From the NCBI GenBank assembly GCA_028864885.1, contig JAGWLR010000002.1, positions 1 through 39,170 of the forward strand: 39,170 bases of DNA. The letters run 5' to 3'. The DNA comes from Burkholderiales bacterium. Lineage in GTDB: Bacteria > Pseudomonadota > Gammaproteobacteria > Burkholderiales > Burkholderiaceae_C. The notes under the pieces are model-generated. The model saw only the letters and a program-made list of their open reading frames with translations. It was not told the origin of the DNA and made no database searches. The translations under genes and the position numbers were made by a program. Shown piece by piece: positions 8,062 to 37,939 of the stretch (position 1 is the first letter of the stretch; each line of letters begins with the position of its first letter).

Positions 8062-8985
8062 ATGAAGCAGCGTGTTTCTTCGCGTTTGACGCATCTGAGC
8101 CTGTCGGTGGCCTTGGCCGTTTCGGCCCTGGTGGGCGTGCCGGCCTGGGCCCGCGAAGGGGTCGATGTCGGGCGTGAATCGTGGGCCACCCGGCTGGTGC
8201 CCGCTGAGCAGGTCGAGCAAGCTGCGCAGCAGCAATATGCGCAGATGCGCGACGATGCGCGCAAAAAGGGCGCCTTGCTGCCCGATAACAATCCGCAGGT
8301 GATCCGCTTGCGCGCCATCGCCAAGCGCATCATTCCCTTTGCCCAGGGCTGGAACCCCCGCGCCGCCGATTGGCAGTGGGAAGTCAATGTGCTCGATTCG
8401 AAAGAGCTGAATGCTTTTTGCATGCCCGGCGGCAAGATTGCCTTCTTCACCGGCATCCTGGATCAGCTCAAGCTGACCGACGACGAAGTGGCCATGGTGA
8501 TGGGGCACGAAATGGCACACGCGCTGCGTGAACACGCCCGCGAGCGCATGGGCAAGCAATCGGCCACCAAACTGGGCGCCAACCTCATCTCAAGCCTGCT
8601 GGGTTTGGGCAGCACAGGCGATGCCCTGCTCAACATGGGCAGCCAGCTGCTGACCCTGAAGTTCAGCCGCGAAGACGAATCCGAGGCCGATCTGGTTGGC
8701 ATGGAACTGGCCGCCCGGGCGGGCTATGACCCGCGTGCCGGCCTCAGCCTGTGGCAAAAGATGGGGGCCGCCGCAAAGGGTGCGCCACCGCAATGGCTGT
8801 CGACCCACCCCTCAGGCAGCACGCGCATCCAAGACATTCAGGCCAACCTACCCAAGGTCATGCCCTTGTATGACCGCGCGCCCAAGCCCACCCAGCGCTT
8901 TGATGTGCCCAAGAAAACCGGCGAGGCCTATAACAACAACGACCCGTATCGCCACCTGATTGGCTGGACGCCATCTGATGGCTGA
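8062..8985 (+). CDS. Periplasmic M48 family zinc metallopeptidase
   Basis: This 307-aa secreted peptidase has an N-terminal signal peptide (MKQRVSSR, hydrophobic core, cleavage after VPAWA). The zinc site is HEMAH at residues 149-153 within VMGHEMAHALREHARERMG, and the third ligand Glu lies in SREDESEADLVGMELAARAGYDP near residue 210. WLSTHPSGSTRIQDIQ near the end is the conserved M48C tail motif. It is similar to LoiP (YggG) and to the peptidase half of BepA, which degrade misfolded outer-membrane proteins; no TPR domain is present. The ATG at 8062 is chosen because it places the signal peptide correctly; an in-frame GTG at 8011 would add 17 residues ahead of it. It converges with the cupin gene. 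Confidence 0.88.
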   Translation: MKQRVSSRLTHLSLSVALAVSALVGVPAWAREGVDVGRESWATRLVPAEQVEQAAQQQYAQMRDDARKKGALLPDNNPQVIRLRAIAKRIIPFAQGWNPRAADWQWEVNVLDSKELNAFCMPGGKIAFFTGILDQLKLTDDEVAMVMGHEMAHALREHARERMGKQSATKLGANLISSLLGLGSTGDALLNMGSQLLTLKFSREDESEADLVGMELAARAGYDPRAGLSLWQKMGAAAKGAPPQWLSTHPSGSTRIQDIQANLPKVMPLYDRAPKPTQRFDVPKKTGEAYNNNDPYRHLIGWTPSDG

Positions 8986-9007
8986 CGCCGCGATTTGGTG
9001 TCGTGGC

Positions 9008-10039
9008 TTAGCCGACGTGCTGGCTGCGCGGGTCGATTGTGATCGTGGCGGGGTCGGGTGCCCACTCGGCTGAGACCGGGCTGATCCGGCCCGGGAAGGA
9101 CAAGGCTCGCGCCATGCGGGGCGATTCTTCTTCCAGCCACTCCATCCCGCTCATGCAAGAGCCCATGGCCAGATAAAAGCTCGCCTTGATCATGGCCTTG
9201 GCCATCCCCGAGGCGCGCGCGCCTTTCAGACCCGACAGAAACGTTTCGCTGACGAACGATCGCCAGTTGGATCGGTCGATGATATTCATGCCGATCGAAA
9301 TCGACGGCGTGAGTGGCCGGGCCGTGTGCCACCAGCCCCGGGGGATGAACACCATGCTGCCAGGCTTGAGCACGGCCCGATAAGGCGTGACCTTCGCCAT
9401 CAGCGGAAAGCGCGTCAAATCCGGGCGCAGCGGATCGAACACCAATGATTTGTTGGGCTGATCCTGCCGGGCGTACACATAAGGCGTGTCTTCGGGGCGG
9501 ATCAGCACGAACTCCTTGTCGCCGTAGATTTCGGTGACGGTGGCATGCACGCCATTGGCGTCGTAATGCATGATGGGAAAGCTGCTTCCCGGGCCGCCAA
9601 TCAACAGCTTCAAAAAGCCATCCGGGCGGCGCCACCCATGCGGCATCCACGGGCTGGCCAATCGGCGTGGGAACCCGTGCAGCGATTGGGGCGACAAATC
9701 GGGCAGCACCTCGGGCAGATCCTGGTGGATGAACAGCCGATACATATAGGGGCAGGGCTTGCCGGGCGCCGAGGCCAGCATCTCGTCAATGAACTGCCGA
9801 AACGGCTTTTGCTCTGCATAGCCCACTGGCACGATGCGGTCGCCGAACTGCTCGCGAAAATACGCGGGCGTCCATTTGTGTAGCGCCGGCCAGCCAGGCG
9901 CCACATCCGTCACCACCACGGGGCGCCCGGCGCGCATGAATCGGTGCAGAAAATCCCGGTAAGGCAGATAAGCCGCCGAGACTTCGTCGACCGGACGGGT
10001 GAGCAAGGCGTCATCCGCGAGTTGGGCCAGTGCAGACAT
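9008..10039 (-). CDS. JmjC/cupin-like (Cupin_8) domain protein
   Basis: This 343-aa protein is related to the cupin-like Fe(II)/2-oxoglutarate oxygenases (FIH/JmjC fold). An N-terminal block with YRDFLHRFMRAGRPVVVTDVAPGWPA is typical of the family entry region. The metal-binding HxD is in PIMHYDANGVHATVTEIYG, and the distal histidine in PGSMVFIPRGWWHTARPL, about 70 residues later. The putative substrate (a protein or small molecule) is unknown. The ATG at 10039 has an AGGA about 10 nt upstream and is preferred to an in-frame start 16 codons earlier. It is probably a single-gene unit, convergent with the M48 peptidase. Confidence 0.75.
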   Translation of the reverse strand: MSALAQLADDALLTRPVDEVSAAYLPYRDFLHRFMRAGRPVVVTDVAPGWPALHKWTPAYFREQFGDRIVPVGYAEQKPFRQFIDEMLASAPGKPCPYMYRLFIHQDLPEVLPDLSPQSLHGFPRRLASPWMPHGWRRPDGFLKLLIGGPGSSFPIMHYDANGVHATVTEIYGDKEFVLIRPEDTPYVYARQDQPNKSLVFDPLRPDLTRFPLMAKVTPYRAVLKPGSMVFIPRGWWHTARPLTPSISIGMNIIDRSNWRSFVSETFLSGLKGARASGMAKAMIKASFYLAMGSCMSGMEWLEEESPRMARALSFPGRISPVSAEWAPDPATITIDPRSQHVG

Positions 10040-23178: not shown

Positions 23179-25557
23179 TTACACGCCGAGGAACATGAAG
23201 CGCCGAAACACGACACTCTTGATTCGGTCGAGAAGGAGGGCGAACACGGCGACGGCACAGACCAAGGCGCCTACGAGTTCCAGTGGGACTGCTGCCATCA
23301 GCGTTCCGGTTACGGCCAGCACACTCACCAGGACTATGTCGATGGCGCTGGCCCACGCCATGAGCGTTCCGGGAGCGAACGCCCACATTGGCCCGTCGTT
23401 GCGAAGTACGTAGATGTTGGTCTGCGTGGTGAATACCAGCAGCAGGAACACCATCGTTTGCGTCTGCCCGGCACTCAGCCCGAACTGCGTGAGCGCCACG
23501 CCATACAGCGATAGCGTGAACGCAAGCGAAACTGCTGCGAGCACGGCCGCGGCGCCGACCAGTTGCCCGACTCGCCAGCGTTGTGGCTGTGTTGCCGGTC
23601 GAACGCGGTCGGTTGCGATGCTCATTGTGACGAAGTCATTGGCGAACAGCAGCAACACGATCAGTCGCGGTGAAATCACAAAGCCTTTGGTGAGCCAGAG
23701 ACCGAGTGTGAGGAAAACGACGATCTCAAGTGTCTTGACTATCTTGTTGAGAATATACGTGAGCATGCGTCGGTGCACTTCTCGCCCTATATCGACCACG
23801 GTCAGGACGCCACTCAGGCCCGGATCGGTCAGAACAACGCCTGCTGCAGCCTTGGCCACATCGGTGGCACTGGCCACGGCGATCCCGAGTTCCGCCTGTC
23901 GCAGCGCAGGTGCGTCATTGACGCCGTCGCCCGTCATCCCCGCGACGTGTCCGGCCTGTTGCAGCGCACTGACGATGGCATGCTTTTCTTCTGGCAGCAC
24001 GCGGGCGAAGATGTCGCATTTTTCGGGTTGTCGTAAGTCGTCTTCGTGCGGAACGCAGGTCCGTGTGCCCAGCCCAAGTCGTTGTCCGATTGCCCGTGCT
24101 GTTTCCAATGCGTCGCCGGTGGCCATGCACACTCTCACGCCACGCTGGCCGAGTTTTGCGATGAGGTCGGCAGCGTCGTCTCGCAGCGGATCGGAGAGGC
24201 CGACCAGGCCGATCGGTCGAATCGCGCCCACCGGGCCTGCCGCAACCGCGAGCACGCGCGCTCCCCCAGCGGCCCAGTCCCTCCCCGTGTCTTGCGCGGC
24301 TTGACGCTGGGCCGCGTCGGCCCCGCAATGTTCGAATACTGCGCTGGTCGCGCCTTTCAGTGCATGCCACTCCTGTCCATCGACGACATAGATGCCTTCA
24401 CTGAATCGGGTTGCCGGATCGAAGGGGCGAAAATCCGTGCGTGCGGGCAGAAGCGCAGATTTTGCGCTCGTACGATAAGCACAAAGGATCGCAAGGTCGA
24501 GGGGATCCTGCGATGCATCGTCGCTGGCCATTGCTGCTGCGCGTAAGACGGTGTCCTCGTCGGCATCTGCCCATGCCTTGACCCCGGCGACGGACAGCCT
24601 GTTCTGCGTCAATGTACCGGTCTTGTCGGACAGTAGGGTATCCATTGCCGCTGCTTCCTCTACCGCAGGCAGCCTCGTGACGAGAACACCCAGTTTTGAA
24701 AGGCGTGTGCTCGCAAGAGCCGTAGCAAAAGTGTAGGTCGCCGGCAAAGCGACCGGAACCGACGCGACGAGCAGCAATAACGCGAACACCGCAGTATCGC
24801 CTAAGGGCAGATCATGCGTCGCGGCGTAAAAGATGACCAGTACCACGAGCACGAGGTCGAAGGCGACGAGGCGCTTGACGATCGAGAAGATCGTGCCTTG
24901 CATATGGCTGGGTGCGTTGGACGTGCGCACGAGTTCTGCCGTCCGACCGAAGTAGGTTCGCGAGCCGGTGGCGGCTACTTCGCCGCTGGCTTCGCCCTGA
25001 TGTATGACCGACCCGGTGTACGCGGGCTGTCCGGGGCCTGCGTCGACAGCGAGAGACTCGCCGGTAAGGGCCGACTGATCCAGCGTCACTGCCCCATCGA
25101 ACAAAACGAGGTCTGCGGGGACGATGTCGCCTGCTCGTACGTGCACCACATCTCCAGGAACCAGTTGCGCGGCGGGAAGCTGACCCCACTGCGCGTCGCG
25201 GAGCACGCGCGCATTGACCTGCAATTGCCGTCGCAGCAACGTCAGCGCGTTTTGAGCGCGCCCTTCCTGAATGGAGGCAACAAGGGCATTGAAAGCAAGC
25301 AGAAACAGGATGACCAGGGCCTCCTCGCCACGATGAAGCATGACCTGTAGCACGATCACCACTTCGAGCATCCAAGGCACCGGCCCCCAGAGTTTTCCGA
25401 GAAGCAGGCGCCATCGCGGTGTGCGAACCTCTTCGATCGCATTCACGCCGAATGATTTCAGGCGATGCAGGGCTTCTGCCGACGTAAGTCCTGTTGCTCG
25501 ATCGGTGGTCGGCAGCGCTTTTGCAGTGTCAGCGGGAGGTTTGGCGGCGCTTGTCAT
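23179..25557 (-). CDS. Plasma-membrane proton-efflux P-type ATPase (P3A)
   Basis: This 792-aa P-type ATPase has the A-domain TGES (ALTGESLAVD), the membrane motif VPVALPATYTF of the P3A class, the phosphorylation motif LSDKTGTLTQN near residue 310, and the hinge MTGDGVNDAPALRQAELGIAV. In the M6 region, LLFANDFVTMSIATDRVRP aligns with the plant and fungal pump segment that holds the essential proton-binding Asp (Asp684 in AHA2); the Asp is present. The long C-terminal autoinhibitory domain of plant pumps is missing, so activity is probably controlled at expression level. It should pump H+ out of the cytoplasm, relevant to acid or metal stress. It converges with the ABC operon. Confidence 0.87.
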   Translation of the reverse strand: MTSAAKPPADTAKALPTTDRATGLTSAEALHRLKSFGVNAIEEVRTPRWRLLLGKLWGPVPWMLEVVIVLQVMLHRGEEALVILFLLAFNALVASIQEGRAQNALTLLRRQLQVNARVLRDAQWGQLPAAQLVPGDVVHVRAGDIVPADLVLFDGAVTLDQSALTGESLAVDAGPGQPAYTGSVIHQGEASGEVAATGSRTYFGRTAELVRTSNAPSHMQGTIFSIVKRLVAFDLVLVVLVIFYAATHDLPLGDTAVFALLLLVASVPVALPATYTFATALASTRLSKLGVLVTRLPAVEEAAAMDTLLSDKTGTLTQNRLSVAGVKAWADADEDTVLRAAAMASDDASQDPLDLAILCAYRTSAKSALLPARTDFRPFDPATRFSEGIYVVDGQEWHALKGATSAVFEHCGADAAQRQAAQDTGRDWAAGGARVLAVAAGPVGAIRPIGLVGLSDPLRDDAADLIAKLGQRGVRVCMATGDALETARAIGQRLGLGTRTCVPHEDDLRQPEKCDIFARVLPEEKHAIVSALQQAGHVAGMTGDGVNDAPALRQAELGIAVASATDVAKAAAGVVLTDPGLSGVLTVVDIGREVHRRMLTYILNKIVKTLEIVVFLTLGLWLTKGFVISPRLIVLLLFANDFVTMSIATDRVRPATQPQRWRVGQLVGAAAVLAAVSLAFTLSLYGVALTQFGLSAGQTQTMVFLLLVFTTQTNIYVLRNDGPMWAFAPGTLMAWASAIDIVLVSVLAVTGTLMAAVPLELVGALVCAVAVFALLLDRIKSVVFRRFMFLGV

Positions 25558-27898: not shown

Positions 27899-28240
27899 AT
27901 GGAAGAAAACGAAGTCATCAAATCCCTCACGGCTTTGGCCCAGTCCGTTCGCTTGCGGGTGTTCCGGGCTTTGGTTGTGGCTGGGCCCAAGGGGCTGACG
28001 CCGGGGGCTTTGGTGGAGCAATTGGCCGTGCCGGCGACATCGCTTTCTTTTCATTTGAAAGAGTTGGTGCACGCCGGGTTGGTGTCGCAAGAGCGAGAGG
28101 GGCGCCACCTGATCTATCGCGCGGCTTTCGATCACATGACGGCGTTGCTGGGCTACCTGACTGAGCACTGCTGCCAGGGCCAGCCATGCAGCACCACCGA
28201 ATCCCCCACCGCAGGCACGCGTGCCTGTTCATCTTGCTGA
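27899..28240 (+). CDS. arsR: Arsenic-responsive repressor ArsR
   Basis: This 113-aa winged-helix repressor has the ArsR HTH in LTPGALVEQLAVPATSLSFHLKELVHAGLVSQEREGRHLIYR (residues ~33-74). It lacks the CxC in the DNA-recognition helix of the plasmid R773 type. Instead Cys91-Cys92 and Cys97 follow the last helix (EHCCQGQPC), the C-terminal As(III) site described for the Acidithiobacillus-type ArsR; a further Cys pair ends the protein (ACSSC). It represses its own operon arsR-arsI-arsC-acr3 until arsenite or an organoarsenical binds. There is no Shine-Dalgarno, and the promoter abuts the ATG. Confidence 0.92.
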   Translation: MEENEVIKSLTALAQSVRLRVFRALVVAGPKGLTPGALVEQLAVPATSLSFHLKELVHAGLVSQEREGRHLIYRAAFDHMTALLGYLTEHCCQGQPCSTTESPTAGTRACSSC

Positions 28241-28252
28241 CAGGAGATCGCC

Positions 28253-28756
28253 ATGAAGCGCTTTCACGTTCACATCCATGTTGACGACTTGGCTCGCAAC
28301 ATCGACTTCTATTCCAAGATGTTTGGCGTTCAGCCCGCGCGGGTCGAATCCGACTACGCCAAGTGGATGCTGGATGAACCCGCAGTGAACTTCGCCATTT
28401 CGATCCGTGGCCATGGGCATGTGGGGCTGGATCACTTGGGTATCCAGGTGGACAACGATCAAGATCTGGCCACGCTCAAGGCGCAGGCTCAGCAAGCCGA
28501 TCTGGCCTTGATCGACGAAGGGGCCACCACCTGCTGCTACGCCCGCAGCGACAAGCATTGGGTGGTCGATCCCCAAGGTCTGCCCTGGGAGCATTTCCGC
28601 ACGCTGGGCACGATTCCGACTTTCCGCGAATCGCCTGACCTTGTGCAAGATGTGGCGGCGCCAGAAGCTGCCGCTGCCAGCCCGTGCTGCACGCCTCTTC
28701 CCCGAGCCAAAGGCTCGCCCATCCCCATCAAACAAGCCGGATCTGGCTGCTGTTGA
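28253..28756 (+). CDS. arsI: ArsI/CadI-family vicinal-oxygen-chelate protein (C-As lyase candidate)
   Basis: This 167-aa glyoxalase/VOC-fold protein matches ArsI, the Fe(II) dioxygenase that cleaves the carbon-arsenic bond of trivalent methyl- and aryl-arsenicals, and its relative CadI. The N-terminal FHVHIHVDDL supplies the first metal histidine, His61 (LDHLGIQV) the second, and Glu113 (PWEHF) the third. Vicinal Cys94-Cys95 (ATTCCYARSDKHW) sit where ArsI binds the arsenical. The C-terminal extension adds two more Cys pairs (SPCCTP and a terminal GSGCC). AGGAGA precedes the ATG, 12 bp after arsR. The ars context favours ArsI over a cadmium role. Confidence 0.85.
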   Translation: MKRFHVHIHVDDLARNIDFYSKMFGVQPARVESDYAKWMLDEPAVNFAISIRGHGHVGLDHLGIQVDNDQDLATLKAQAQQADLALIDEGATTCCYARSDKHWVVDPQGLPWEHFRTLGTIPTFRESPDLVQDVAAPEAAAASPCCTPLPRAKGSPIPIKQAGSGCC

Positions 28757-28762
28757 TTCACC

Positions 28763-29266
28763 ATGACCACCCACGTTCTGATCCTGTGCACGCACAACTC
28801 GGCGCGCAGCGTCCTCTCTGAGGGCATGCTCAACCATCTGGCCCGCCAACTGGGCAAGGATGTTCAGGCCCACAGTGCGGGCAGCGCGCCCAGCGGCCGA
28901 ATCAATCCATTTGCGGTTGAAGCCTTGAGCCAGGCTGGCATCGACACGTCGGCTTACCGCAGCAAAAGCTGGGACGAGTTCACCACGCCAGATGCGCCAC
29001 CGCTGTCCATCGTGATCACGGTGTGCGACAGCGCTGCGGCCGAGGCCTGCCCCGTCTTCTTTGGCGGCAATGGGCAGCCGGTGAAGGTGCATTGGGGCTA
29101 CCCTGACCCGTCCAACGCCGAAGGCGGTGATGAGGGCAAGCGCCGCGCGTTCGAGCTGACACGCCAAGCCATTGGCTACAAGATGCTGCAGTTGCTGTCT
29201 TTGCCGCTTGACACGATGGACAAGCCAGCACTGGCGGACGCATTGGCTGCCATTGCGCGCAGTTGA
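28763..29266 (+). CDS. arsC: Arsenate reductase, low-molecular-weight phosphatase type
   Basis: This 167-aa enzyme has the PTP-like loop CTHNSARS (Cys9 to Arg15, CX5R) at the N-terminus, followed by AHSAGSAPSGRINPFAVEAL, both typical of the LMW-PTP-fold arsenate reductases. VITVCDSAAAEACPVFFG near residue 87 supplies additional cysteines for the disulfide cascade. It reduces As(V) to As(III), which the downstream Acr3 exports. The start lies 6 bp after the arsI stop. Confidence 0.92.
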   Translation: MTTHVLILCTHNSARSVLSEGMLNHLARQLGKDVQAHSAGSAPSGRINPFAVEALSQAGIDTSAYRSKSWDEFTTPDAPPLSIVITVCDSAAAEACPVFFGGNGQPVKVHWGYPDPSNAEGGDEGKRRAFELTRQAIGYKMLQLLSLPLDTMDKPALADALAAIARS

Positions 29267-29278
29267 TTGGGGGGCATC

Positions 29279-30334
29279 ATGTCGCAATCCAGCGCGCAGC
29301 AAATGAGTGTGTTTGAGCGTTACCTCACCGTGTGGGTGTTTCTGTGCATCGTGGCGGGTATCGCCTTGGGGCAGATGGCACCCGCGCCGGTTCAGGCGGT
29401 GGGCCATATGGAGGTGGCTCAGGTCAATCTGCCGGTGGGCCTGCTCATTTGGGTGATGATCATTCCCATGCTCATCAAGGTGGACTTCGCCAGCCTGTCA
29501 CAGGTCAAAGCCCACTGGCGTGGGATCGGGGTCACCCTGTTTGTGAACTGGGCGGTCAAACCGTTTTCCATGGCCTTTTTGGGGTGGTTGTTTGTTCGGC
29601 AAGTGTTTGCGCAGTGGCTGCCGGCCGAGCAACTCGACAGTTATGTGGCTGGGTTGATCCTGTTGGCCGCCGCACCTTGCACGGCGATGGTGTTCGTCTG
29701 GAGCCGGCTCACCAACGGCCACCCGCTGTTCACCCTCAGCCAAGTGGCACTGAACGACACGATCATGGTGTTTGCGTTTGCCCCCATCGTGGGCTTGCTG
29801 CTGGGCTTGTCGGCCATCACCGTGCCTTGGGCCACCTTGGTGACGTCGGTGGTGCTTTACATCGTGATCCCGGTCATCTTGGCGCAGCTCATTCGCAAAT
29901 CGCTCCTGGCACGCGGTCAGGCTGCATTGGATGCAGCACTGGCCAAGATCGGTCCGTGGTCGATTTCGGCTTTGTTGGCCACCCTGGTGCTGTTGTTCGC
30001 TTTTCAGGGGCAGGCGATCATCGACCAGCCTCTGGTCATCGCCATGCTGGCTGTGCCCATCTTGATTCAGGTGTTCTTCAACTCGGCATTGGCCTACTGG
30101 CTCAATCGCCGATTGGGCGAGGCGCACAATGTGGCTTGTCCCTCGGCTTTGATCGGCGCCAGCAATTTCTTTGAGCTGGCTGTGGCTGCGGCGATCAGCC
30201 TGTTTGGCTTCAAATCGGGGGCGGCATTGGCCACTGTGGTGGGCGTGCTGATCGAGGTGCCGGTGATGTTGCTGGTGGTTCGCATCGTCAACCAAAGCAA
30301 GGGGTGGTACGAACAAGGTGCCCGCCAGGCATGA
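29279..30334 (+). CDS. acr3: Arsenite efflux transporter, ACR3 family
   Basis: This 351-aa inner-membrane protein has ~10 membrane segments of the BASS/ACR3 type. Recognisable segments are SVFERYLTVWVFLCIVAGIALG, VGLLIWVMIIPMLIKVDF, NWAVKPFSMAFLGW, LLAAAPCTAMVFVWSRLTNGHP (with the conserved transport cysteine) and ALIGASNFFELAVAAAISLFG. It extrudes As(OH)3 or arsenite using the proton gradient. The ATG at 29279 is chosen; a GGGGGG tract lies 5-10 nt upstream, and the stop of arsC is 12 bp away. It is the last gene of the ars operon and converges with the Lrp regulator. Confidence 0.93.
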   Translation: MSQSSAQQMSVFERYLTVWVFLCIVAGIALGQMAPAPVQAVGHMEVAQVNLPVGLLIWVMIIPMLIKVDFASLSQVKAHWRGIGVTLFVNWAVKPFSMAFLGWLFVRQVFAQWLPAEQLDSYVAGLILLAAAPCTAMVFVWSRLTNGHPLFTLSQVALNDTIMVFAFAPIVGLLLGLSAITVPWATLVTSVVLYIVIPVILAQLIRKSLLARGQAALDAALAKIGPWSISALLATLVLLFAFQGQAIIDQPLVIAMLAVPILIQVFFNSALAYWLNRRLGEAHNVACPSALIGASNFFELAVAAAISLFGFKSGAALATVVGVLIEVPVMLLVVRIVNQSKGWYEQGARQA

Positions 30335-30443: not shown

Positions 30444-30914
30444 CTATTCCGGGCGATCCAGCTTGGTCGACAGCAAGATCGTCGAGAAGGTGTCTTCCAC
30501 CCCTTGCACATTGCGGATGCGATCCAACACCGCATCCAGCTCTTGCGTGGAATCGGTCAGCAGCATGGCGCACAGGTCATAACGGCCGCTGACCGAGTAC
30601 ACCTTGGTGATCTCATGGCGCTTCGATAGCTCTTTCACCACGGTGGATTCGTGCCGTGAATCAATCGAGATCAGCACCATGGCCCGGATCACATGGGGCC
30701 CGCGGGTGCTGCTCACACTCACGGTGTAGCCGGTGATCACGCCGGCATCTTCGAGCGCCTTGAGCCGTAGTTGCGCGGTGCTACGAGCGCAGCCCAAAGC
30801 CTTGGCGAGGTTGACCAGGGGCAGGCGGGCGTTGACCTTCAGCAGCTCGATGAGCTGGTGGTCCATCGCATCCAGATTGGGCTTGAGCGACAGCTTGGCA
30901 GTGGGTTTCGGCAT
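30444..30914 (-). CDS. Lrp/AsnC-family regulator, probable controller of the lysine operon
   Basis: This 156-aa regulator has an N-terminal HTH (LDAMDHQLIELLKVNARLPLVNLAKALGCARSTAQLRLKALEDAGVITGY) and a C-terminal RAM/ActD ligand-binding domain (ISIDSRHESTVVKELSKRHEITKVYSVSGRYDLCAMLL). The family forms octamers that respond to amino acids. It is divergent from kamA with 118 bp between the starts, and that gap holds a perfect 14-bp inverted repeat. This makes it the likely autoregulated, lysine- or intermediate-responsive regulator of the kam operon; the effector is inferred. The ATG at 30914 has no Shine-Dalgarno; a CATAAT box ends six bases before it. A longer in-frame start would overlap the operator. 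Confidence 0.85.
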   Translation of the reverse strand: MPKPTAKLSLKPNLDAMDHQLIELLKVNARLPLVNLAKALGCARSTAQLRLKALEDAGVITGYTVSVSSTRGPHVIRAMVLISIDSRHESTVVKELSKRHEITKVYSVSGRYDLCAMLLTDSTQELDAVLDRIRNVQGVEDTFSTILLSTKLDRPE

Positions 30915-30920
30915 AAAGCC

Positions 30921-30926
30921 ATTATG
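30921..30926 (-). promoter_or_regulatory. -10 box of the lrp-type regulator promoter
   Basis: Minus-strand CATAAT ends six bases before the regulator's ATG; the -35 region is weak and falls beyond the left operator arm. Initiation would coincide with the A of the start codon. Confidence 0.45.
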
Positions 30927-30927
30927 G

Positions 30928-30974
30928 CGATCAAATTGACTGATTGAAAGCAACAAGTTAAGTCAATTTGATCG
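30928..30974. promoter_or_regulatory. Perfect 14-bp inverted repeat, Lrp-type operator between the regulator and kamA
   Basis: CGATCAAATTGACT (30928-30941) and its exact reverse complement AGTCAATTTGATCG (30961-30974) are separated by 19 bp; arm centres are 33 bp apart, close to three helical turns. Each arm contains the near-palindrome TCAA-A-TTGA, as expected for a half-site bound by one Lrp dimer. The left arm overlaps the regulator promoter and the right arm abuts the candidate kamA -35 box. Confidence 0.8.
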
Positions 30975-31003
30975 TTTTCATCGGCGGGGCGTCTGCCGAT
31001 ACT
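30975..31003 (+). promoter_or_regulatory. Candidate kamA promoter
   Basis: TTTTCA (30975-30980) and GATACT (30998-31003), each four of six consensus bases, are spaced by 17 bp. The right operator arm ends directly before the -35, centred near -42 relative to a start at ~31010, a position compatible with activation. A GGAGAG Shine-Dalgarno then precedes the ATG. Confidence 0.4.
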
Positions 31004-31032
31004 GAAGGCATGGAGATGGCTGGAGAGTTGTC

Positions 31033-32244
31033 ATGCTGCAGATCATCGAAGCCCCGGAACTCGTGCCCGCCGCATCGTGTTCGAGCACGCCCAGGAAGCT
31101 CCTGACCTGGGAGGCCCTGCAGGCTTACGACCCCGAAAGTGAGCCCTGGCAAAAACAGTTCGCGCGTCGCTACACCCATCACCGTGAGCTGATGGGCGTG
31201 CTGCACAAGGTCGAGGATGTGGACGACACCGTCTACGCCAAATTCGCGATCGCCGTCACGCCTTACATGGCGCAGCTCATGGACCGCGATGACCCGAATT
31301 GCCCGATCCGCCTGCAATACCTGCCGTCTTTCCATGAGCAAACCCATCCCGGCTTTGCCACGTTGCTGGATGAGCTGGGCGAAGAGAAGGACACCATTCC
31401 CGGCACGAGCGTGGTGCACCGCTACCCACGTCGGGTTCTGTTTCTGGTCAGCAATACCTGCGCCACCTTGTGCCGCTTCTGCACGCGCAAGCGCATGGTG
31501 TCGCAGCCCACAGGCTCGGTCCACAAGGACGAGATCGAGGCCTCGATTGACTACATTGCGAGCAACAAGCACATCGAGGATGTGCTGCTGTCGGGCGGTG
31601 ACCCGCTGACCTTCACCGATGAGCGCCTGGATGAGATCCTCGGTGAAATTCGGCGCCGGGCACCCCATGTGCGCTTCTTGCGCATTGGATCGCGCATGGT
31701 GGTGCAACTGCCCACGCGCATCACGCCCGAGTTGTGCGCGGTGCTGGAAAAGCACCGCGTGCAGATGCTCAACATCCACATCAACCACCACAAAGAGATC
31801 ACCCCCCTGCTGCGCCAGCGCGTGAAGATGATCCAGAAGGCCGGTGTGATGATGGGCTTGCAGACTGTGTGCCTCAAGGGTGTGAACGACAGCGTGGAGG
31901 TGATGCGCGAGCTGTTCATGCAGGCCATCGAGATGGGGGTGCGGCCTTACTACGTGTACTCGACCGACATGGTCGAAGGTGCGCACCATTTCATCGTGCC
32001 GCACCGCCGTATGCTGGAGCTGTACGAAGGGCTGCGCGGCTGGATCAGCGGGCCGGCGGTGCCCACCTTCATCGTGGATGGACTGGGCGGCCTGGGCAAG
32101 CTGCCCATCATCCCCAGCTATGTGCGAGAAGAGCCCTTGCCCGATGGCAGTGGCACCACCATCCAGTGCCGCAACTATGCAGGCAAGACAGTGGAGATGC
32201 CGGGCTTGGGGCAGCACTTCAGCTTGCCCACGAAAAGCAATTGA
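31033..32244 (+). CDS. kamA: L-lysine 2,3-aminomutase
   Basis: This 403-aa radical SAM/PLP enzyme converts L-lysine to L-beta-lysine (3,6-diaminohexanoate), the first step of the pathway. The [4Fe-4S] motif is Cys143-x3-Cys147-x2-Cys150 (CATLCRFC), followed by TRKRM and the LLSGGDPLTF motif. Lys356 in VDGLGGLGKLPIIPSY aligns with the PLP lysine (Lys337) of the Clostridium enzyme. Asp312 (YSTDMVEG) and Asp349 (FIVDG) have exactly the spacing of Asp293 and Asp330, which hold the substrate side-chain amino group. This favours a true lysine 2,3-aminomutase over EpmB. It is the first gene of the operon. Oxygen sensitivity of the cluster is expected. Confidence 0.93.
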   Translation: MLQIIEAPELVPAASCSSTPRKLLTWEALQAYDPESEPWQKQFARRYTHHRELMGVLHKVEDVDDTVYAKFAIAVTPYMAQLMDRDDPNCPIRLQYLPSFHEQTHPGFATLLDELGEEKDTIPGTSVVHRYPRRVLFLVSNTCATLCRFCTRKRMVSQPTGSVHKDEIEASIDYIASNKHIEDVLLSGGDPLTFTDERLDEILGEIRRRAPHVRFLRIGSRMVVQLPTRITPELCAVLEKHRVQMLNIHINHHKEITPLLRQRVKMIQKAGVMMGLQTVCLKGVNDSVEVMRELFMQAIEMGVRPYYVYSTDMVEGAHHFIVPHRRMLELYEGLRGWISGPAVPTFIVDGLGGLGKLPIIPSYVREEPLPDGSGTTIQCRNYAGKTVEMPGLGQHFSLPTKSN

Positions 32245-32256
32245 GCGGGAGGCACC

Positions 32257-33294
32257 ATGAAGCCCGCCTGTCCTTATGGCACCCACCGCGTGATCGAGCC
32301 CCTTGGCGTGTTGCCGCAGCCCGCCTGGCGGCTCGACAACACGATGACGGTGCGTGACAACGAGATCCTCATCGACGTGCAGGCGCTGAATGTCGATGCG
32401 GCCAGCTTCACTCAAATCAAACAAGCCGCGCAGGGGAATGTGGATCGCATTGCGGCCACCCTCGTGGATATCGTGGCGCGACGCGGCAAGCTGCATAACC
32501 CGGTGACGGGATCGGGGGGCATGTTGATTGGGCGCGTGGCGGAACTGGGTGCAGGTTTGGCAGGCAAGAGGGACCTGACCGTGGGCGACAAGATCGCGAC
32601 CATGGTGTCCTTGTCGCTCACGCCCTTGCGCATTGACCGTATCCACCGGGTGCACCTGCACAAGGATCAGGTAGAGATCGACGGACAAGCCATCCTGTTT
32701 GAAAGCGGGCTGTACGCCAAGTTGCCTAACGACATCCCCGAGCCTGTGGCCCTGGCCATCCTGGATGTGGCGGGGGCCCCGGCGCAAACGGCGCGGCTGG
32801 TTCAGCCCGGCGACACTGTGGTGGTGGTGGGCGGCGGTGGCAAATCGGGCACCTTGTGTGTGTACGAGGCTCACAAGCGCGCCGGCCCGCATGGCTGTGT
32901 GATTGGCCTGTCGCCTTTTGAGCAGGATTGCCAGCGCATGCGCGAGCTGGGCTGGGTGGACCACGCCTTGCAAGTGGATGCCACCGATGCCGTGGCCACG
33001 ATGCAGGCGGTGGCTCACGCCACGCAGGGCCGCCTGGCTGATGTGGTGATCAACTGCGTGAACTTGCCAAACACCGAAATGGGCAGCATCTTGTCCACCC
33101 GGGACCGGGGGCGCCTCTATTTCTTTTCGATGGCGACGAGCTTCACCGCTGCTTCATTGGGGGCTGAGGGGGTGGGCAAAGACGTGGACATGTTGATGGG
33201 CAACGGCTATGCCAAGGGCAACGCCGACTACGCCTTGTCGCTGTTGCGAGAGTCGCCGGCCTTGCGGCGCTTGTTCGAAACGCTTTACGTGTGA
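32257..33294 (+). CDS. kdd: L-erythro-3,5-diaminohexanoate dehydrogenase
   Basis: This 345-aa NAD-dependent dehydrogenase oxidatively deaminates 3,5-diaminohexanoate to 3-keto-5-aminohexanoate. It belongs to the Kdd family, distantly MDR-like: an N-terminal substrate domain (VLPQPAWRLDNTMTVRDNEILIDVQALNVDAASF, then GSGGMLIGRVAELG) and a Rossmann domain with VVVVGGGGKSGTLCVYEAHKR at residues 187-207. No zinc-dehydrogenase catalytic cysteine cluster is seen, as expected for Kdd. GGGAGG precedes the ATG, 12 bp after kamA. Identification rests on family resemblance and operon position. Confidence 0.88.
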   Translation: MKPACPYGTHRVIEPLGVLPQPAWRLDNTMTVRDNEILIDVQALNVDAASFTQIKQAAQGNVDRIAATLVDIVARRGKLHNPVTGSGGMLIGRVAELGAGLAGKRDLTVGDKIATMVSLSLTPLRIDRIHRVHLHKDQVEIDGQAILFESGLYAKLPNDIPEPVALAILDVAGAPAQTARLVQPGDTVVVVGGGGKSGTLCVYEAHKRAGPHGCVIGLSPFEQDCQRMRELGWVDHALQVDATDAVATMQAVAHATQGRLADVVINCVNLPNTEMGSILSTRDRGRLYFFSMATSFTAASLGAEGVGKDVDMLMGNGYAKGNADYALSLLRESPALRRLFETLYV

Positions 33295-33307
33295 AGCGAG
33301 GCAAGCC

Positions 33308-34381
33308 ATGGTCACCCCCTTGTGGCAACGAATCGAATCGCAGCACCTGCCCACCGTGGCCGTGATGGGCATGAGCAAGAACACCGGCAAAACGGTGTGC
33401 CTGAACCATCTGCTGGCTCAGGCTCATGCGTCGGGGCGAGCCATGGGCATCACATCGATTGGGCGCGATGGTGAAGAACGCGATGAGGTGTTCGCCACGC
33501 CCAAGCCGGCGGTGCGGGTGACTCCAGGCTGCCTGGTGGCCACCGCCCGCGACACCTTGGTGCGATCGCGAACCCGCACGAAAGTCTTGGGGGGCACCGG
33601 GGTTCACAGCCCGATGGGCGAGATCCTGATCGTCAAGGCCATCGAGGCCGGTGACATGGAGGTGGCTGGTCCCTCCTTGAGTCAAGATCAACAGCGGGTC
33701 ATCGGTTTGCTGCGGCAATGCGGGGCCCAACAGATCTTGCTGGATGGGGCCTTGGGGCGCAGTCACCATGCCTCGCCCGCGATTGCCGACGGCGTGATTC
33801 TGGCCACGGGCGCCGCCTTGGGTGGGGGCATGGGCGATGTGCTGCGCAAGACGCGTGACCGCCTGGCCATTTTGGGTTTGACCGTGGCCGAGCCCGACCT
33901 GGCTCAGCGTGTACAGCCCGTCTTTGCTCGCGGCGGAGTGGGCGTTTGGGGCCCTGATGGCCAATGCTTGTTTTGCGAGCCGATTGCCACACTCAATGCC
34001 GCTGCGGCCTTGATGCACCTGCACAGCCGGCATGCTCGGGCTGGGGCTGTGGCCACCGTGGCGGTGTCAGGCGCGGTGGGGCGCTTGTTTTGGCGTGCCT
34101 TGCAGACCCTGCTGGATCACCATCCTGGTTTGACCTTGGTCGTGGCCGATGGCACCCGCTTGTTCATCGACGCAAGGGAGCTGCATGCCTATCAGCGGCA
34201 AGGCGGATGCGTGCGCGCCCTGCGCGGCATCCGCCTGCTGGGTGTGACGCTCAACCCCGTCTCGCCAACCGGCGCCAGCTTTGATGCGGGTGCGTTTCTG
34301 GATCAGGCGCGAACGTTATTGGCACCGCATTGGGTTGGGGACGTGGGGGCGCCGCCCCTGCCGCAGGAGGAGGAATCATGA
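33308..34381 (+). CDS. kamB: Lysine 5,6-aminomutase reactivase subunit KamB
   Basis: This 357-aa protein has a Walker A-like P-loop GMSKNTGKT (residues 21-29) and TSIGRDGEERDEVFATPKPAVRVTPGCLVAT, then GTGVHSPMGEILIVKAIEAGDMEVAGP and LLDGALGRSHHASPAIADGVILATGA. This pattern is that of KamB, found with kamC (MutS-like ATPase) next to kamDE and thought to reactivate the B12/PLP aminomutase after suicide inactivation. The ATG at 33308 has GAGG upstream, and its stop overlaps the kamD start (ATGA), preceded by AGGAGGAGG. No kamC is present in the window, an unusual arrangement. Confidence 0.85.
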   Translation: MVTPLWQRIESQHLPTVAVMGMSKNTGKTVCLNHLLAQAHASGRAMGITSIGRDGEERDEVFATPKPAVRVTPGCLVATARDTLVRSRTRTKVLGGTGVHSPMGEILIVKAIEAGDMEVAGPSLSQDQQRVIGLLRQCGAQQILLDGALGRSHHASPAIADGVILATGAALGGGMGDVLRKTRDRLAILGLTVAEPDLAQRVQPVFARGGVGVWGPDGQCLFCEPIATLNAAAALMHLHSRHARAGAVATVAVSGAVGRLFWRALQTLLDHHPGLTLVVADGTRLFIDARELHAYQRQGGCVRALRGIRLLGVTLNPVSPTGASFDAGAFLDQARTLLAPHWVGDVGAPPLPQEEES

Positions 34382-35946
34382 GCCACCTCACACTGGATTC
34401 ATCACAAATCGACCGGGCCCGCGATCTGGCCCGACGCATCGCGCAGCAGGTGCATGAGGACATGCACCGCTTCACCACCACTTCGGTTGAGCGCGCTACC
34501 TTGCGCCTGATGGGCGTGGATGGCGTGGATGCCGACCAGGTGCCTTTGCCCAACCGGCTCGTGAGCCACCTGCACGATCAAGGCCTGTTGCGACATGGCG
34601 CGGCCGTTACGGTGGCTGGTGCCATGCTGGATCACGGCTTGGGCTTGCAAGAAGTGGCACACGCCGTGGCCGATGGCCGGTTGGAGTTGCAGCGCCCCAA
34701 GCATGAGGCCGCCGCCCGGCGCGAGGCCGACCATCTCGCCGCCTATGCATGTGAACGCATCGCCGCCAACCGCGCCACACGCGAAGCCGCCATCGCCCAG
34801 CATGGTGACGCCCGCACGCCCTGGCTGTACCTGATTGTGGCCACCGGCAACATCCATGAAGACATCGTGCAGGCTTGCGTGGCAGCCGAGCAAGGAGCCG
34901 ATGTGATCGCGGTGATTCGATCCACCGGGCAAAGCCTACTGGATTACGTGCCCTATGGCGCCACCACCGAAGGCTTTGGCGGCACCTATGCCACGCAAGA
35001 GAACTTCCGCCTGATGCGGGCCGCGCTGGATGAGGTGGGTCACAAGATCGGGCGCTACATCCGCCTGACCAATTACTGCTCTGGCTTGTGCATGCCCGAG
35101 ATCGCTGCCATGGGGGCCATGGAGCGCCTGGACATGATGCTCAACGACTCGATGTACGGGATCATCTTCCGCGACATCAACATGCAGCGCACCTTCATCG
35201 ACCAGTTCTTCTCACGCATGGTCAATGCCTATGCCGGCATCATCATCAACACCGGTGAAGACAACTACCTCACCACGGCCGATGCCTATGAAGCGGCGCA
35301 CACGGTGCTGGCCTCGCAGTTGATCAACGAACAATTTGCCTACCTCAGCGGGCTCAAGCCCGAGCAGATGGGCCTGGGTCATGCCTTCGAGATCAACCCC
35401 GCGCTGGAGAACGGCTTTTTGTGGGAGTTGGCCCATGCGCAACTGGTGCGCCAGGTGTTTCCCGAGGCCTGCCTGAAGTACATGCCCCCCACCAAACACA
35501 TGACGGGCAACATCTTCAAAGGCCACATCCAGGATGCGCTGTTCAACGTGGTCAGTGTGCTCACGCGGCAGAACATCCATCTGCTGGGCATGATGACCGA
35601 GGCCATCCACACGCCTTGGATGCAGGATCGATTTCTCGCGATCCAGAACGCACGCTATGTCTTTGGCAACCTGCAGGACCTGCACGCTGAAATCCAGTTC
35701 ACCCCGGGCGGCCAGATCGAGCGCCGAGCGCAGCAGGTGCTGGCCGATGCCTTGGCGCTACTTGACGCCATCGCCCAGATCGGCCTGCCCGCAGCCATCG
35801 CCCAAGGCACCTTTGCCGACATCGCGCGCACCCCCAAGGGGGGCAAGGGGCTGGACGGCGTGGTGCCCAAGGCGGCCGATTATCACAACCCCTTCCCGGC
35901 CTTGATGTTGCCGACCTCGCTTCGGCATGAGGAGCGCGTGTCATGA
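34378..35946 (+). CDS. kamD: Lysine 5,6-aminomutase, alpha subunit
   Basis: This 522-aa large subunit of the adenosylcobalamin- and PLP-dependent aminomutase moves the terminal amino group of L-beta-lysine (or D-lysine) to C5. It covers the full family length, with a TIM-barrel core: LYLIVATGNIHEDIVQACVAAEQGADVIAVIRSTGQSLLDYVPYGATTEGFGGTY in the middle, RLTNYCSGLCMPEIAAMGAMERLDMMLNDSMYGI, then FIDQFFSRMVNAYAGIIINTGEDNY and HAFEINPALENGFLWELAHAQL. The ATG at 34378 overlaps the kamB stop; an earlier in-frame start lies inside kamB. The stop overlaps kamE (ATGA), consistent with stoichiometric co-translation of the two subunits. Confidence 0.95.
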   Translation: MSHLTLDSSQIDRARDLARRIAQQVHEDMHRFTTTSVERATLRLMGVDGVDADQVPLPNRLVSHLHDQGLLRHGAAVTVAGAMLDHGLGLQEVAHAVADGRLELQRPKHEAAARREADHLAAYACERIAANRATREAAIAQHGDARTPWLYLIVATGNIHEDIVQACVAAEQGADVIAVIRSTGQSLLDYVPYGATTEGFGGTYATQENFRLMRAALDEVGHKIGRYIRLTNYCSGLCMPEIAAMGAMERLDMMLNDSMYGIIFRDINMQRTFIDQFFSRMVNAYAGIIINTGEDNYLTTADAYEAAHTVLASQLINEQFAYLSGLKPEQMGLGHAFEINPALENGFLWELAHAQLVRQVFPEACLKYMPPTKHMTGNIFKGHIQDALFNVVSVLTRQNIHLLGMMTEAIHTPWMQDRFLAIQNARYVFGNLQDLHAEIQFTPGGQIERRAQQVLADALALLDAIAQIGLPAAIAQGTFADIARTPKGGKGLDGVVPKAADYHNPFPALMLPTSLRHEERVS

Positions 35947-36710
35947 GCACCCAGCCCTTACCTGATACCTTGGTGCGACCCTACGGCGACACCCTGGATG
36001 ATGGCCGCGTGCAGTTGTCCTTCACGCTGCCTGTGCCGCTGGACGACAATGCCAAGGAGGCGGCGCGCCAGTTGGCCGGCCAGATGGGCATCGAAGAACC
36101 GGCGGTGGTGCACAGCGAGAGCATGGGAACGGGCTTCGCCTTCTTTGTGTTGTACGGACGCTGCCGACACCGCGTAGACATGAGCCGCATCCAGGTGGCC
36201 AAGCCCGATTTCGAGGTGCTCGACAAAGAGGCCGTGAACGCCAAGATCGCGCGCCTGATGGGGCGCAAGCTGGTGGTGGTGGGCGCCTGCATCGAAACCG
36301 ATGCGCACACGGTGGGCATTGACGCCATCATGAACATGAAAGGCTTCAATGGCCACAAGGGTCTGGAAAGCTATCACGAGATCCGCGCCATCAACATGGG
36401 GGCTCAGGTCGATTCGGAAGACCTGGTGGCACGCGCGATCGACGAGCACGCCGACGCGATCCTCGTGTCGCAAGTGGTGACGCAAAAGAACATCCACCTC
36501 GATAACCTGACACGATTGTCAGACATGTTGGAGGCCGAAGGCTTGCGCAGCCGCGTGATCTTGGTGGTGGGTGGCCCGCGCATCAGCCATGAGCTGGCCA
36601 AGGAGCTGGGCTATGACGCTGGCTTTGGCCCAGGGTGCTATGCCGAAAACGTGGCGTCCTTCCTGATCGAAGAGTGGGCGCGACGCCATGTTGGGCAACA
36701 CGCACGTTGA
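35943..36710 (+). CDS. kamE: Lysine 5,6-aminomutase, beta subunit (B12- and PLP-binding)
   Basis: This 255-aa subunit carries the cobalamin-binding domain with the base-off motif DAHTVG (Asp120-His122-Gly125) and the following SQVVTQKNIHLDN and GGPRISHELAKELGYDAGFGPG elements of the Rossmann-like B12 fold. Lys133 (MNMKGF), eleven residues after His122, matches the spacing between His133 and the PLP-binding Lys144 of the Clostridium (Acetoanaerobium) sticklandii enzyme. The subunit therefore appears competent for both cofactors. The ATG overlaps the kamD stop and is preceded by GAGGAG. The B12 supply (biosynthesis or import genes) is not in the window. Confidence 0.95.
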   Translation: MSTQPLPDTLVRPYGDTLDDGRVQLSFTLPVPLDDNAKEAARQLAGQMGIEEPAVVHSESMGTGFAFFVLYGRCRHRVDMSRIQVAKPDFEVLDKEAVNAKIARLMGRKLVVVGACIETDAHTVGIDAIMNMKGFNGHKGLESYHEIRAINMGAQVDSEDLVARAIDEHADAILVSQVVTQKNIHLDNLTRLSDMLEAEGLRSRVILVVGGPRISHELAKELGYDAGFGPGCYAENVASFLIEEWARRHVGQHAR

Positions 36711-36722
36711 CAGGAGACAAGC

Positions 36723-37124
36723 ATGCAAGAGTTCACCAGCCTGATCCGCCTGCGCATGGCCTCGCATGAGGCCCACTACGCTGGCAACCTGGTCGATGGG
36801 GCCCGAATGCTGCAACTGTTTGGCGACGTGGCCACCGAGTTGCTGATTCGCAGTGATGGCGATGAGGGCTTGTTCGTGGCCTATGACCGGGTGGAGTTTT
36901 TGGCGCCGGTTCGGGCGGGGGATTACATCGAGGCCGAGGGGCGCATCGTGGCCATGGGCAAGTCATCTCGCAAGATGGTGTTCGAAGCCCGCAAGGTGAT
37001 CAGCGCGGTCGAGGTGCCGGGCCAACCGTCAGCTTGCGATGTGCTGCCCGAACCCGTGGTGGTGTGCCGGGCGTCGGGCACCTGTGTGGTGCCAGCCGCA
37101 TGTCAACGCAAGGGGGTCTCATGA
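36723..37124 (+). CDS. kal: 3-aminobutyryl-CoA ammonia-lyase
   Basis: This 133-aa hotdog-fold enzyme eliminates ammonia from L-3-aminobutyryl-CoA to give crotonyl-CoA. It matches the Kal family (about 130 aa) with [67 protein letters not shown] over the first two thirds. AGGAGA precedes the ATG, 12 bp after kamE; the stop overlaps the kce start (ATGA). Its position between kamE and kce fixes the role. Confidence 0.9.
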
Positions 37125-37939
37125 ACCCGCTGATCATCACCGCCGCGCTGACCGGGGCCGAGGTCACGCGTGAGCAGCAACCAGCCTTGCCCGTGTCACC
37201 CCAGGAAATCGGCATCGCTGCGGCCGAGTGTGCCGAAGCGGGCGCCAGCATCGTGCATGTGCATGCGCGTCTGCCCGATGGGCAATCCACCCAGGATCCG
37301 GTCATCTATGAACAAATCTTGCGCGAAGTGCGCCAGCGCAGCGATGTGATCGTGCAGATCTCGACGGGTGGGGCCGTGGGCATGACCCCGCAGGAGCGCT
37401 TGGCGCCGGTGGCCTTGCGCCCCGAAATGGCGACCTTGTCGATGGGGTCGGTGAATTTTGGCCAGGACGTGTTTCTCAATGCGCCCTCCGACATCGCCGT
37501 CTTTGCGCACGAGATGCTGCGCCTGGGAGTGAAGCCTGAGCTGGAAATCTTTGACACCGGTATGCTGGCCACCGCCAAGAGATGGCTGCGTCAGGGCTTG
37601 CTGCCTCAGCCTGCGCATGTGGATCTGGTGTTGGGGATGCCGGGTGGCATGGCGGCCACGCCCCAAACGCTGCTGTACCTCGTGTCTGAATTGCCCCCCG
37701 AGTGCACGTGGTCAGCGGCTGGCATTGGGGCTGCCCAGTTGCCAGTGGTGACCTGGGCCATCTTGCTGGGGGGACACGCGCGGGTCGGCCTGGAGGACAA
37801 CATCTACTATCGCAAGGGCGAACTGGCGGTGAGCAACGCGCAACTGGTGGCGCGGGTGGTGCGCCTGGCTCACGAGCTGGAGCGCGAGGTGGCCACGCCC
37901 GCACAAGCCCGGCAGATGCTGGGCCTGTCGGGTGGCTGA
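37121..37939 (+). CDS. kce: 3-keto-5-aminohexanoate cleavage enzyme (BKACE family)
   Basis: This 272-aa Zn-dependent TIM-barrel enzyme condenses 3-keto-5-aminohexanoate with acetyl-CoA to yield acetoacetate and L-3-aminobutyryl-CoA. Zinc ligands His46 and His48 lie in SIVHVHAR and Glu225 in [10 protein letters not shown], matching the two histidines and glutamate of characterised Kce. The [16 protein letters not shown] and [16 protein letters not shown] segments are typical of the BKACE superfamily. The ATG at 37121 has AGGGGG upstream and overlaps the kal stop; a longer in-frame start would lie inside kal. BKACE enzymes vary in substrate, but the operon leaves little doubt here. It is the last gene of the operon. 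Confidence 0.92.

Follow-up and report, generated by a model that had tools for sequence, protein, structure and literature searches.

How does a lysine degradation pathway that is best known from obligate anaerobes come to stand in a betaproteobacterium with a respiratory oxidase, and what might it do there? The question is raised by a stretch of 39,170 nucleotides (the window, meaning the whole of positions 1 to 39,170 of contig JAGWLR010000002.1 in the Burkholderiales assembly GCA_028864885.1), in which kamA, kdd, kamB, kamD, kamE, kal and kce form an operon (31033-37939) that runs in a single direction beside a divergent gene for a regulator of the Lrp/AsnC family. On the strength of its sequence, we read this locus, with a probability of about 0.75, as a catabolic lysine operon of a respiring betaproteobacterium that is probably lysine-responsive. 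The pathway itself is known, yet a literature search limited to open-licence papers found none that places it in Betaproteobacteria. This version is distinguished in that no KamC was found, that KamA is diverged and that conserved sites precede the operon.

An operon for every step of the pathway

On the forward strand, kamA (31033-32244), kdd (32257-33294), kamB (33308-34381), kamD (34378-35946), kamE (35943-36710), kal (36723-37124) and kce (37121-37939) follow one another with gaps of 12, 13, -4, -4, 12 and -4 bp, including three ATGA overlaps. The seven tightly packed genes and the divergent Lrp-type regulator are thus where a first-pass annotation, made from the sequence alone, had placed them.

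Families were assigned by NCBIfam curated cut-offs and Pfam gathering thresholds. With the exception of KamA, all products (six of seven) exceed the cut-off of a model with a named function: Kdd as 3,5-diaminohexanoate dehydrogenase (NF052381, 270.5 versus 200 bits), KamB as reactivase subunit of lysine 5,6-aminomutase (NF052386, 314.9 versus 210), KamD as the alpha subunit of that mutase, a TIM barrel that binds pyridoxal 5'-phosphate (PLP; NF052384, 852 versus 600), KamE as its B12-binding beta subunit with the PLP lysine (NF052385, 391.7 versus 280), Kal as 3-aminobutyryl-CoA ammonia lyase (NF052388, 192.3 versus 160) and Kce (NF052387, 401 versus 382). Pfam agrees wherever it has models, and Kdd and Kal match PDB 7dl3 (E 2.1e-109) and 4mtu, a beta-alanyl-CoA ammonia lyase (E 2e-23), respectively. 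By these assignments, the operon encodes all steps from L-lysine to acetoacetate and crotonyl-CoA. Chance assembly of such a gene set is excluded because 33 of 42 other proteobacterial loci share the eight-gene layout, regulator included. Pathway assignment and operon structure therefore stand as first proposed; the word 'complete' holds for the pathway steps but not for the known second reactivase gene, kamC, which was not found.

From the same assignments we infer the enzyme activities, the substrate and the direction of flux. KamA, a radical S-adenosylmethionine (SAM) enzyme with PLP, would turn L-lysine into beta-lysine, and KamDE, with B12 and PLP, would move the terminal amino group to yield 3,5-diaminohexanoate. 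Kdd would oxidise the latter to 3-keto-5-aminohexanoate, and Kal would take off ammonia to leave crotonyl-CoA.

The residues that were checked favour working enzymes. KamE retains the DxHxxG motif and the PLP-lysine motif, with equivalents of K144 and of H133, which we count as a B12-site residue, and its DAHTVGIDAIMNMKG motif aligns with PDB 9q1a and 8t0v. Kce, which matches PDB 2y7d at E 1.2e-79, retains the HxH and ED motifs, to which we presume catalytic roles belong. KamD matches PDB 8t0v and 1xrs at E about 1e-206 (8t0v numbering is that of 1xrs plus one), and on reading the alignment it keeps all of R184, S189, Y236, S238, Y263, R268 and N299, the PLP-site residues given, along with K144 as the PLP lysine of KamE, in an excerpt of the structural literature (PMC3958899). 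The proposed pair of a radical SAM and a B12/PLP enzyme is in this respect sound, with the checked residues present in KamA, KamD and KamE. Loss of catalytic residues had been named beforehand as grounds for giving up the assignment; it was not seen, since the aligned positions in these proteins and in Kce are kept.

In enzyme steps and in PLP and B12 residues, the operon is like the lysine fermentation operon of Fusobacterium and Clostridium (kamA-E, kdd, kce, kal). It differs from the latter by hosts with respiratory oxidases, by the lack of a detectable KamC, by a zinc-free, diverged KamA and by a divergent Lrp gene with conserved sites. The parallel with Cloacamonas, drawn in the first-pass annotation, extends to the KamA, KamDE, Kdd and Kce steps but is inexact because Cloacamonas is without kal and uses Kat to transaminate 3-aminobutyryl-CoA (PMC3149608), whereas the window has Kal. 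A Peptococcaceae metagenome-assembled genome (MAG) carries a 417-aa aminotransferase-like open reading frame (ORF; L042:12344-13597) between kamE and kal, where Kat might sit, and the Kat and Kal routes may coexist there. Elsewhere, a COG3246 protein adjoins catechol genes, with no lysine link in the excerpted source (PMC6449761), and an excerpt on Pseudomonas describes a CoA-dependent ammonia lyase for beta-valine that is not a Kal homologue (PMC4619459).

Rare but widely spread among proteobacteria

With KamD as the single query against the genome collection, the best 80 of 584 confirmed loci include 42 other proteobacterial ones (assigned by title and place in the tree). The betaproteobacterial setting is well founded, the nearest relatives being Aquabacterium MAGs, and the presence of the operon in such a bacterium was borne out; it is not unique, however, as about 40 other proteobacteria that the earlier annotation had missed carry it too. 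All eight genes are collinear, with lrp divergent, in the 33 loci mentioned above. Among the nine incomplete ones, eight are truncated by a contig end ahead of the missing genes, and the ninth, from a Sphingomonadales MAG (L038), is without kamB. Within the window's order, KamD was found in 1 of 399 spread-sampled genomes, namely its own, and in none of the 13 others listed from its family, which together with the scattered proteobacterial loci makes the operon rare but wide. In an Undibacterium locus, kal and kce are separated by some 800 bp in which the only ORFs are small and unconvincing (L012:12966-13772).

Could the locus be a product of binning or assembly? In favour of this are the 194 contigs of the window's genome and the position, within the proteobacterial KamD group, of two MAGs labelled Sphingomonadales and 'Gammaproteobacteria'. 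This explanation is refuted, though, by isolates with the same operon (Paucibacter, Undibacterium, Ideonella paludis, Dechloromonas CZR5 and Aromatoleum), and the similar GC content of the operon (63.3%) and the rest of the window (60.1%) also speaks against it, leaving it a practically negligible chance. Base composition gives no sign of recent transfer either.

The unrooted KamD tree unites the proteobacterial rows in one group (SH-aLRT 98); its neighbours are two Negativicutes MAGs and, beyond them, a Peptococcaceae MAG. This topology suggests a Firmicutes-like source of the operon. KamD identity to the 38 non-proteobacterial rows has a median of 59% and reaches 69% at best. A plasmid home was considered and set aside: the two kamD-bearing 'plasmid' records (NZ_CP154629.1 and NZ_CP084075.1, of 2.6 and 2.1 Mb), which come from Acetoanaerobium and Fusobacterium, look like misfiled chromosomes.

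A diverged KamA without the zinc site

Calling the first gene kamA was right in that its product belongs to the radical SAM KamA subfamily (TIGR00238, 263.3 versus 199.2 bits); it is not a standard lysine 2,3-aminomutase, and it has no zinc site, a point on which the first-pass annotation was silent. The protein matches PDB 2a5h, which we take to be a lysine 2,3-aminomutase of the C. subterminale type, at E 2.5e-79. With 2a5h and AblA it shares the cluster motif, the PLP lysine and the lysine-binding aspartates; it differs from them by a score below the cut-off for lysine 2,3-aminomutase, by valine, isoleucine or leucine in place of Cys268 and by a shorter tail. Each of the 38 proteobacterial rows, from 37 loci and the window, has the CxxxCxxC motif and the equivalents of R134, D293, D330 and K337; by the numbering and roles assumed here, the cysteines hold the cluster, D293 and D330 bind lysine and K337 is the PLP lysine. 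The aspartate pair is informative and points to lysine, because position 330 is T in the annotated arginine 2,3-aminomutase BlsG and C in a Rhizobium KamA-family protein.

All 38 proteobacterial rows have V, I or L at the zinc-ligand position 268, and one Cys remains in a tail that extends 47-48 aa beyond the PLP lysine, as against 61-91 aa in 28 other rows from the pathway or the genomes (26 distinct genes; Firmicutes loci L090, L093 and L097 stand outside these counts). Neither trait marks proteobacterial KamA alone, a notion that was rejected: Cys268 is also missing in five of the 28 other rows and tail cysteines in some, an annotated Bacillus ablA carries no Cys in its tail, and short tails occur outside the pathway in BlsG (40 aa) and the Rhizobium protein (35 aa). 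The KamA of one Negativicutes MAG (L092) has no zinc cysteines either, yet its tail is long. Judged by these alignments, the peculiarity is a zinc-free, short KamA that is highly conserved inside a lysine operon.

Among proteobacteria, identity to the window's KamA is 78-93% (n=37), and its median of 83 exceeds those of the other five operon proteins compared. Outside them, its best match among the 28 rows is 42%, the lowest of the six (Kdd 67, KamD 69, KamE 67, Kal 77, Kce 62%), and the proteobacterial rows form one branch (support 100). Gene exchange at kamA fits this pattern best, and fast change followed by constraint may be an alternative. A source of the lineage was searched for and not found, and a search for a viral copy gave none. 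An identity as EpmB was also considered and rejected, as the protein scores 217.9 versus 369.3 for EpmB and its own genome holds no other match.

A KamA that has diverged further than its operon partners could also mean that the true substrate is external beta-lysine or D-lysine, entry of lysine through KamA being secondary. Yet kamA is the first gene, is strongly conserved within the group and retains the lysine-binding aspartates, which makes a different substrate unlikely; L-lysine remains the substrate in our reading.

KamB without KamC

Compared with the KamBC reactivase (NF052386 and NF052383), the window has KamB over its cut-off, whereas the KamC ATPase was not found in the genome. The KamC model (cut-off 300 bits), which came up through clostridial and Bacteroidetes neighbours, is exceeded in three of 50 genomes (L050, L058 and L062), each time adjacent to kamB, and these serve as positive controls. 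It is exceeded in none of the 39 proteobacterial genomes searched, several of which are MAGs and possibly incomplete (loci L027, L029, L034 and L045 lay outside this search). The single match in the window's own genome, 183.8 bits in a 935-aa frame, is as expected of MutS, as are the other sub-threshold matches in proteobacteria, mostly in frames of 850-1000 aa; three genomes have none at all. A custom model built from five KamC sequences places KamC nearby in 17 of the 80 loci, none of them proteobacterial, and the gene order of KamC-bearing loci is unlike that of the window's operon. KamC is, however, also not over the cut-off in eight of the 11 non-proteobacterial genomes searched, which means that proteobacteria did not invent the trait but have it in common with the presumed donor side. 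On the KamD tree, its presence takes five changes, at least four of them forced by well-supported branches, with loci on short contigs scored as lacking KamC.

KamB is predicted to be a P-loop NTPase that resembles the SIMIBI type, to which MeaB/MMAA, chaperones of B12 mutases, belong, although signal recognition particle (SRP) GTPases score equal to or above MeaB/MMAA and the IcmF G-protein chaperones against it. It differs from these chaperones by a beta-rich segment (about 69-121) past its first strands, and by sequence no match in the PDB was found at E <=1. We infer that KamB alone would service the suicide-prone KamDE. Should the pathway run in air, KamB would be a minimal reactivase that could be compared with the KamBC pair; the literature search described above found no paper on the KamB/KamC reactivase.

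Several loci vary at this position. In the Sphingomonadales MAG L038, kdd directly overlaps kamD (8895-10004), and no KamB was found in the locus or the genome record. In a lake MAG, KamB is split across two overlapping frames (L048:8801-10004), by either a sequencing error or a real break, and in two Firmicutes loci (L051:8469-9917 and L055:3941-5503) an ORF resembling a PAS-type regulator stands between kamB and kamD, at the place that kamC takes in others.

Respiring proteobacteria may have taken over the anaerobes' pathway, exchanged KamA for a zinc-free lineage and cut repair down to KamB, with the radical SAM and B12 route now running in oxygen-breathing cells and feeding its products into beta-oxidation or poly-3-hydroxybutyrate (PHB), a scenario to which we hold only tentatively, at about one chance in three.

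A divergent regulator and phased sites

The regulator gene (30444-30914, reverse strand) lies in a frame open to 30956, with the likelier start at ATG 30912-30914. Its product has helix-turn-helix and ligand-binding domains, both over gathering (PF13404, 38.7 bits; PF01037, 52.1 bits), and its nearest NCBIfam model is LysM (93.8 bits, below the cut-off of 180). The gene is present, and always divergent, in 36 of the 42 proteobacterial loci, the other six being cut by contig ends.

Between regulator and kamA, the putative Lrp operator (30928-30974) is a perfect 14-bp inverted repeat (arms 30928-30941 and 30961-30974) that contains TGACTGA (30937-30943) and TAAGTCA (30959-30965), 22 bp apart. 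TGACTGA or TCAGTCA is found in 30 of 37 lrp-kamA regions (those of the 36 loci and that of the window), where random windows drawn from these loci would give 0.45. With up to one mismatch, convergent 22-bp pairs are found 19 times and divergent 10-bp pairs 14 times, with none in the regions of L037 and L038. Phased half-site arrays are expected of Lrp-type proteins. The divergent Lrp protein would bind these sites and control the operon, as a presumptive regulator-operator pair with a presumptive ligand.

The same regions bear on a rival reading, namely that the pathway runs only under oxygen limitation (microoxic or denitrifying), with a decarboxylase or another route serving in air. FNR-like sites (up to two mismatches to an FNR consensus) occur in nine of the 37 regions, the window's included, with 2.2 (shuffles) or 2.8 (random windows) expected. 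This excess is weak because five of the nine overlap TGACTGA half-sites, and five regions are left once the half-sites are masked.

Oxygen, respiration and the fate of the products

Radical SAM and B12 radical chemistry are generally oxygen-sensitive, and the iron-sulphur cluster of KamA and the cob(II)alamin of KamDE accordingly favour the oxygen-limited reading, as does NarG, which is over cut-off in nine of 14 genomes (two partial copies in the window's own) and partial at contig starts in two more. Against it stand three of the 14 hosts, Paucibacter Y2R2-4, Ideonella MAG2 and Dechloromonas CZR5, in which no NarG, even partial above 500 bits, was found (Nap was not searched). We consider restriction to low oxygen only slightly less probable than even. 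Were the pathway to run in air, the catabolism of an oxygen-breathing cell would include two oxygen-sensitive radical enzymes that act in series. The isolates listed above make the oxygen question testable in culture.

The reading as a respiratory catabolic operon draws on the host genomes. The cytochrome oxidase CtaD is over cut-off in the window's own genome (695.9 bits) and in 12 of 12 proteobacterial genomes, as opposed to none of three comparators (Carboxylicivirga falls just under, 665.2 versus 670.75). For B12 supply, one of the genome checks proposed earlier, CobQ of cobalamin synthesis is present in 14 of 14 hosts (own genome 394.9 bits). For acetoacetate activation, another such check, the own genome has a ScoA-family CoA-transferase candidate (261.1 bits) and no acetoacetyl-CoA synthetase over cut-off; the ScoA family occurs in eight of nine genomes, and a ScoA-family or AacS candidate in nine of nine proteobacterial genomes searched for both. 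Class I polyhydroxyalkanoate (PHA) synthase is likewise encoded (710.6 bits; PHA synthase in eight of nine genomes). A ScoA-type CoA-transferase would then activate acetoacetate, which would not be reduced to butyrate, crotonyl-CoA would enter beta-oxidation or PHB, and electrons would pass to oxygen or nitrate. The earlier suggestion that the products feed beta-oxidation rather than butyrate formation is thus a plausible respiratory fate.

The alternative of ordinary fermentation, with a facultative host that makes butyrate and acetate, draws on the enzymes shared with the clostridial pathway (Bcd/Etf lay outside the genome searches). With CtaD in every proteobacterial genome examined and neither a CoA-transferase nor a Bcd gene in the operon itself, we regard it as improbable, a shade more so than an external substrate. 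On the respiratory reading, metagenomic kam genes alone are not proof of butyrate-forming fermenters.

When neighbour genes of the relatives were clustered with a codon-position filter, amino-acid ABC transporter-like genes appeared beside the operon (in Dechloromonas L032 and L035 and Accumulibacter L028, among others), as did arginase (seven loci) and ornithine cyclodeaminase (six loci), in line with a catabolic role; none of these was found near the operon in the window.

Several points weigh against a respiratory lysine operon under Lrp control. KamA scores 316.7 bits against the lysine 2,3-aminomutase equivalog TIGR03820, under its cut-off of 525.4. The structural resemblance of KamB is distant, Foldseek giving no match in the PDB at E <=0.001 in a comparison limited to the folds it ranked. 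The site counts are not independent, as the lrp-kamA regions are related. The ScoA model (pcaI_scoA_fam) also covers 3-oxoadipate transferases. Butyrate formation is possible, with butyryl-CoA dehydrogenase, thiolase and enoyl-CoA hydratase outside the genome searches. Finally, a member of PF01276, the family of lysine/arginine/ornithine decarboxylases, is encoded in the own genome and in eight of eight relatives, and therefore the kam operon need not be the sole lysine route.

Other features of the window

No tRNA and no Rfam family over gathering was found in the window. Adjoining the operon, an arsenic gene set (27899-30334) comprises an ArsR-like regulator, an ArsI/CadI-type metalloenzyme (133.2 bits, above 116), an ArsC-like protein (66.1, below 174.3) and an ACR3 efflux protein (382.9, above 282.8). 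Upstream of both the ars and the kam genes lies a P-type proton-efflux ATPase (23179-25557; 624.6 versus 615.5 bits).

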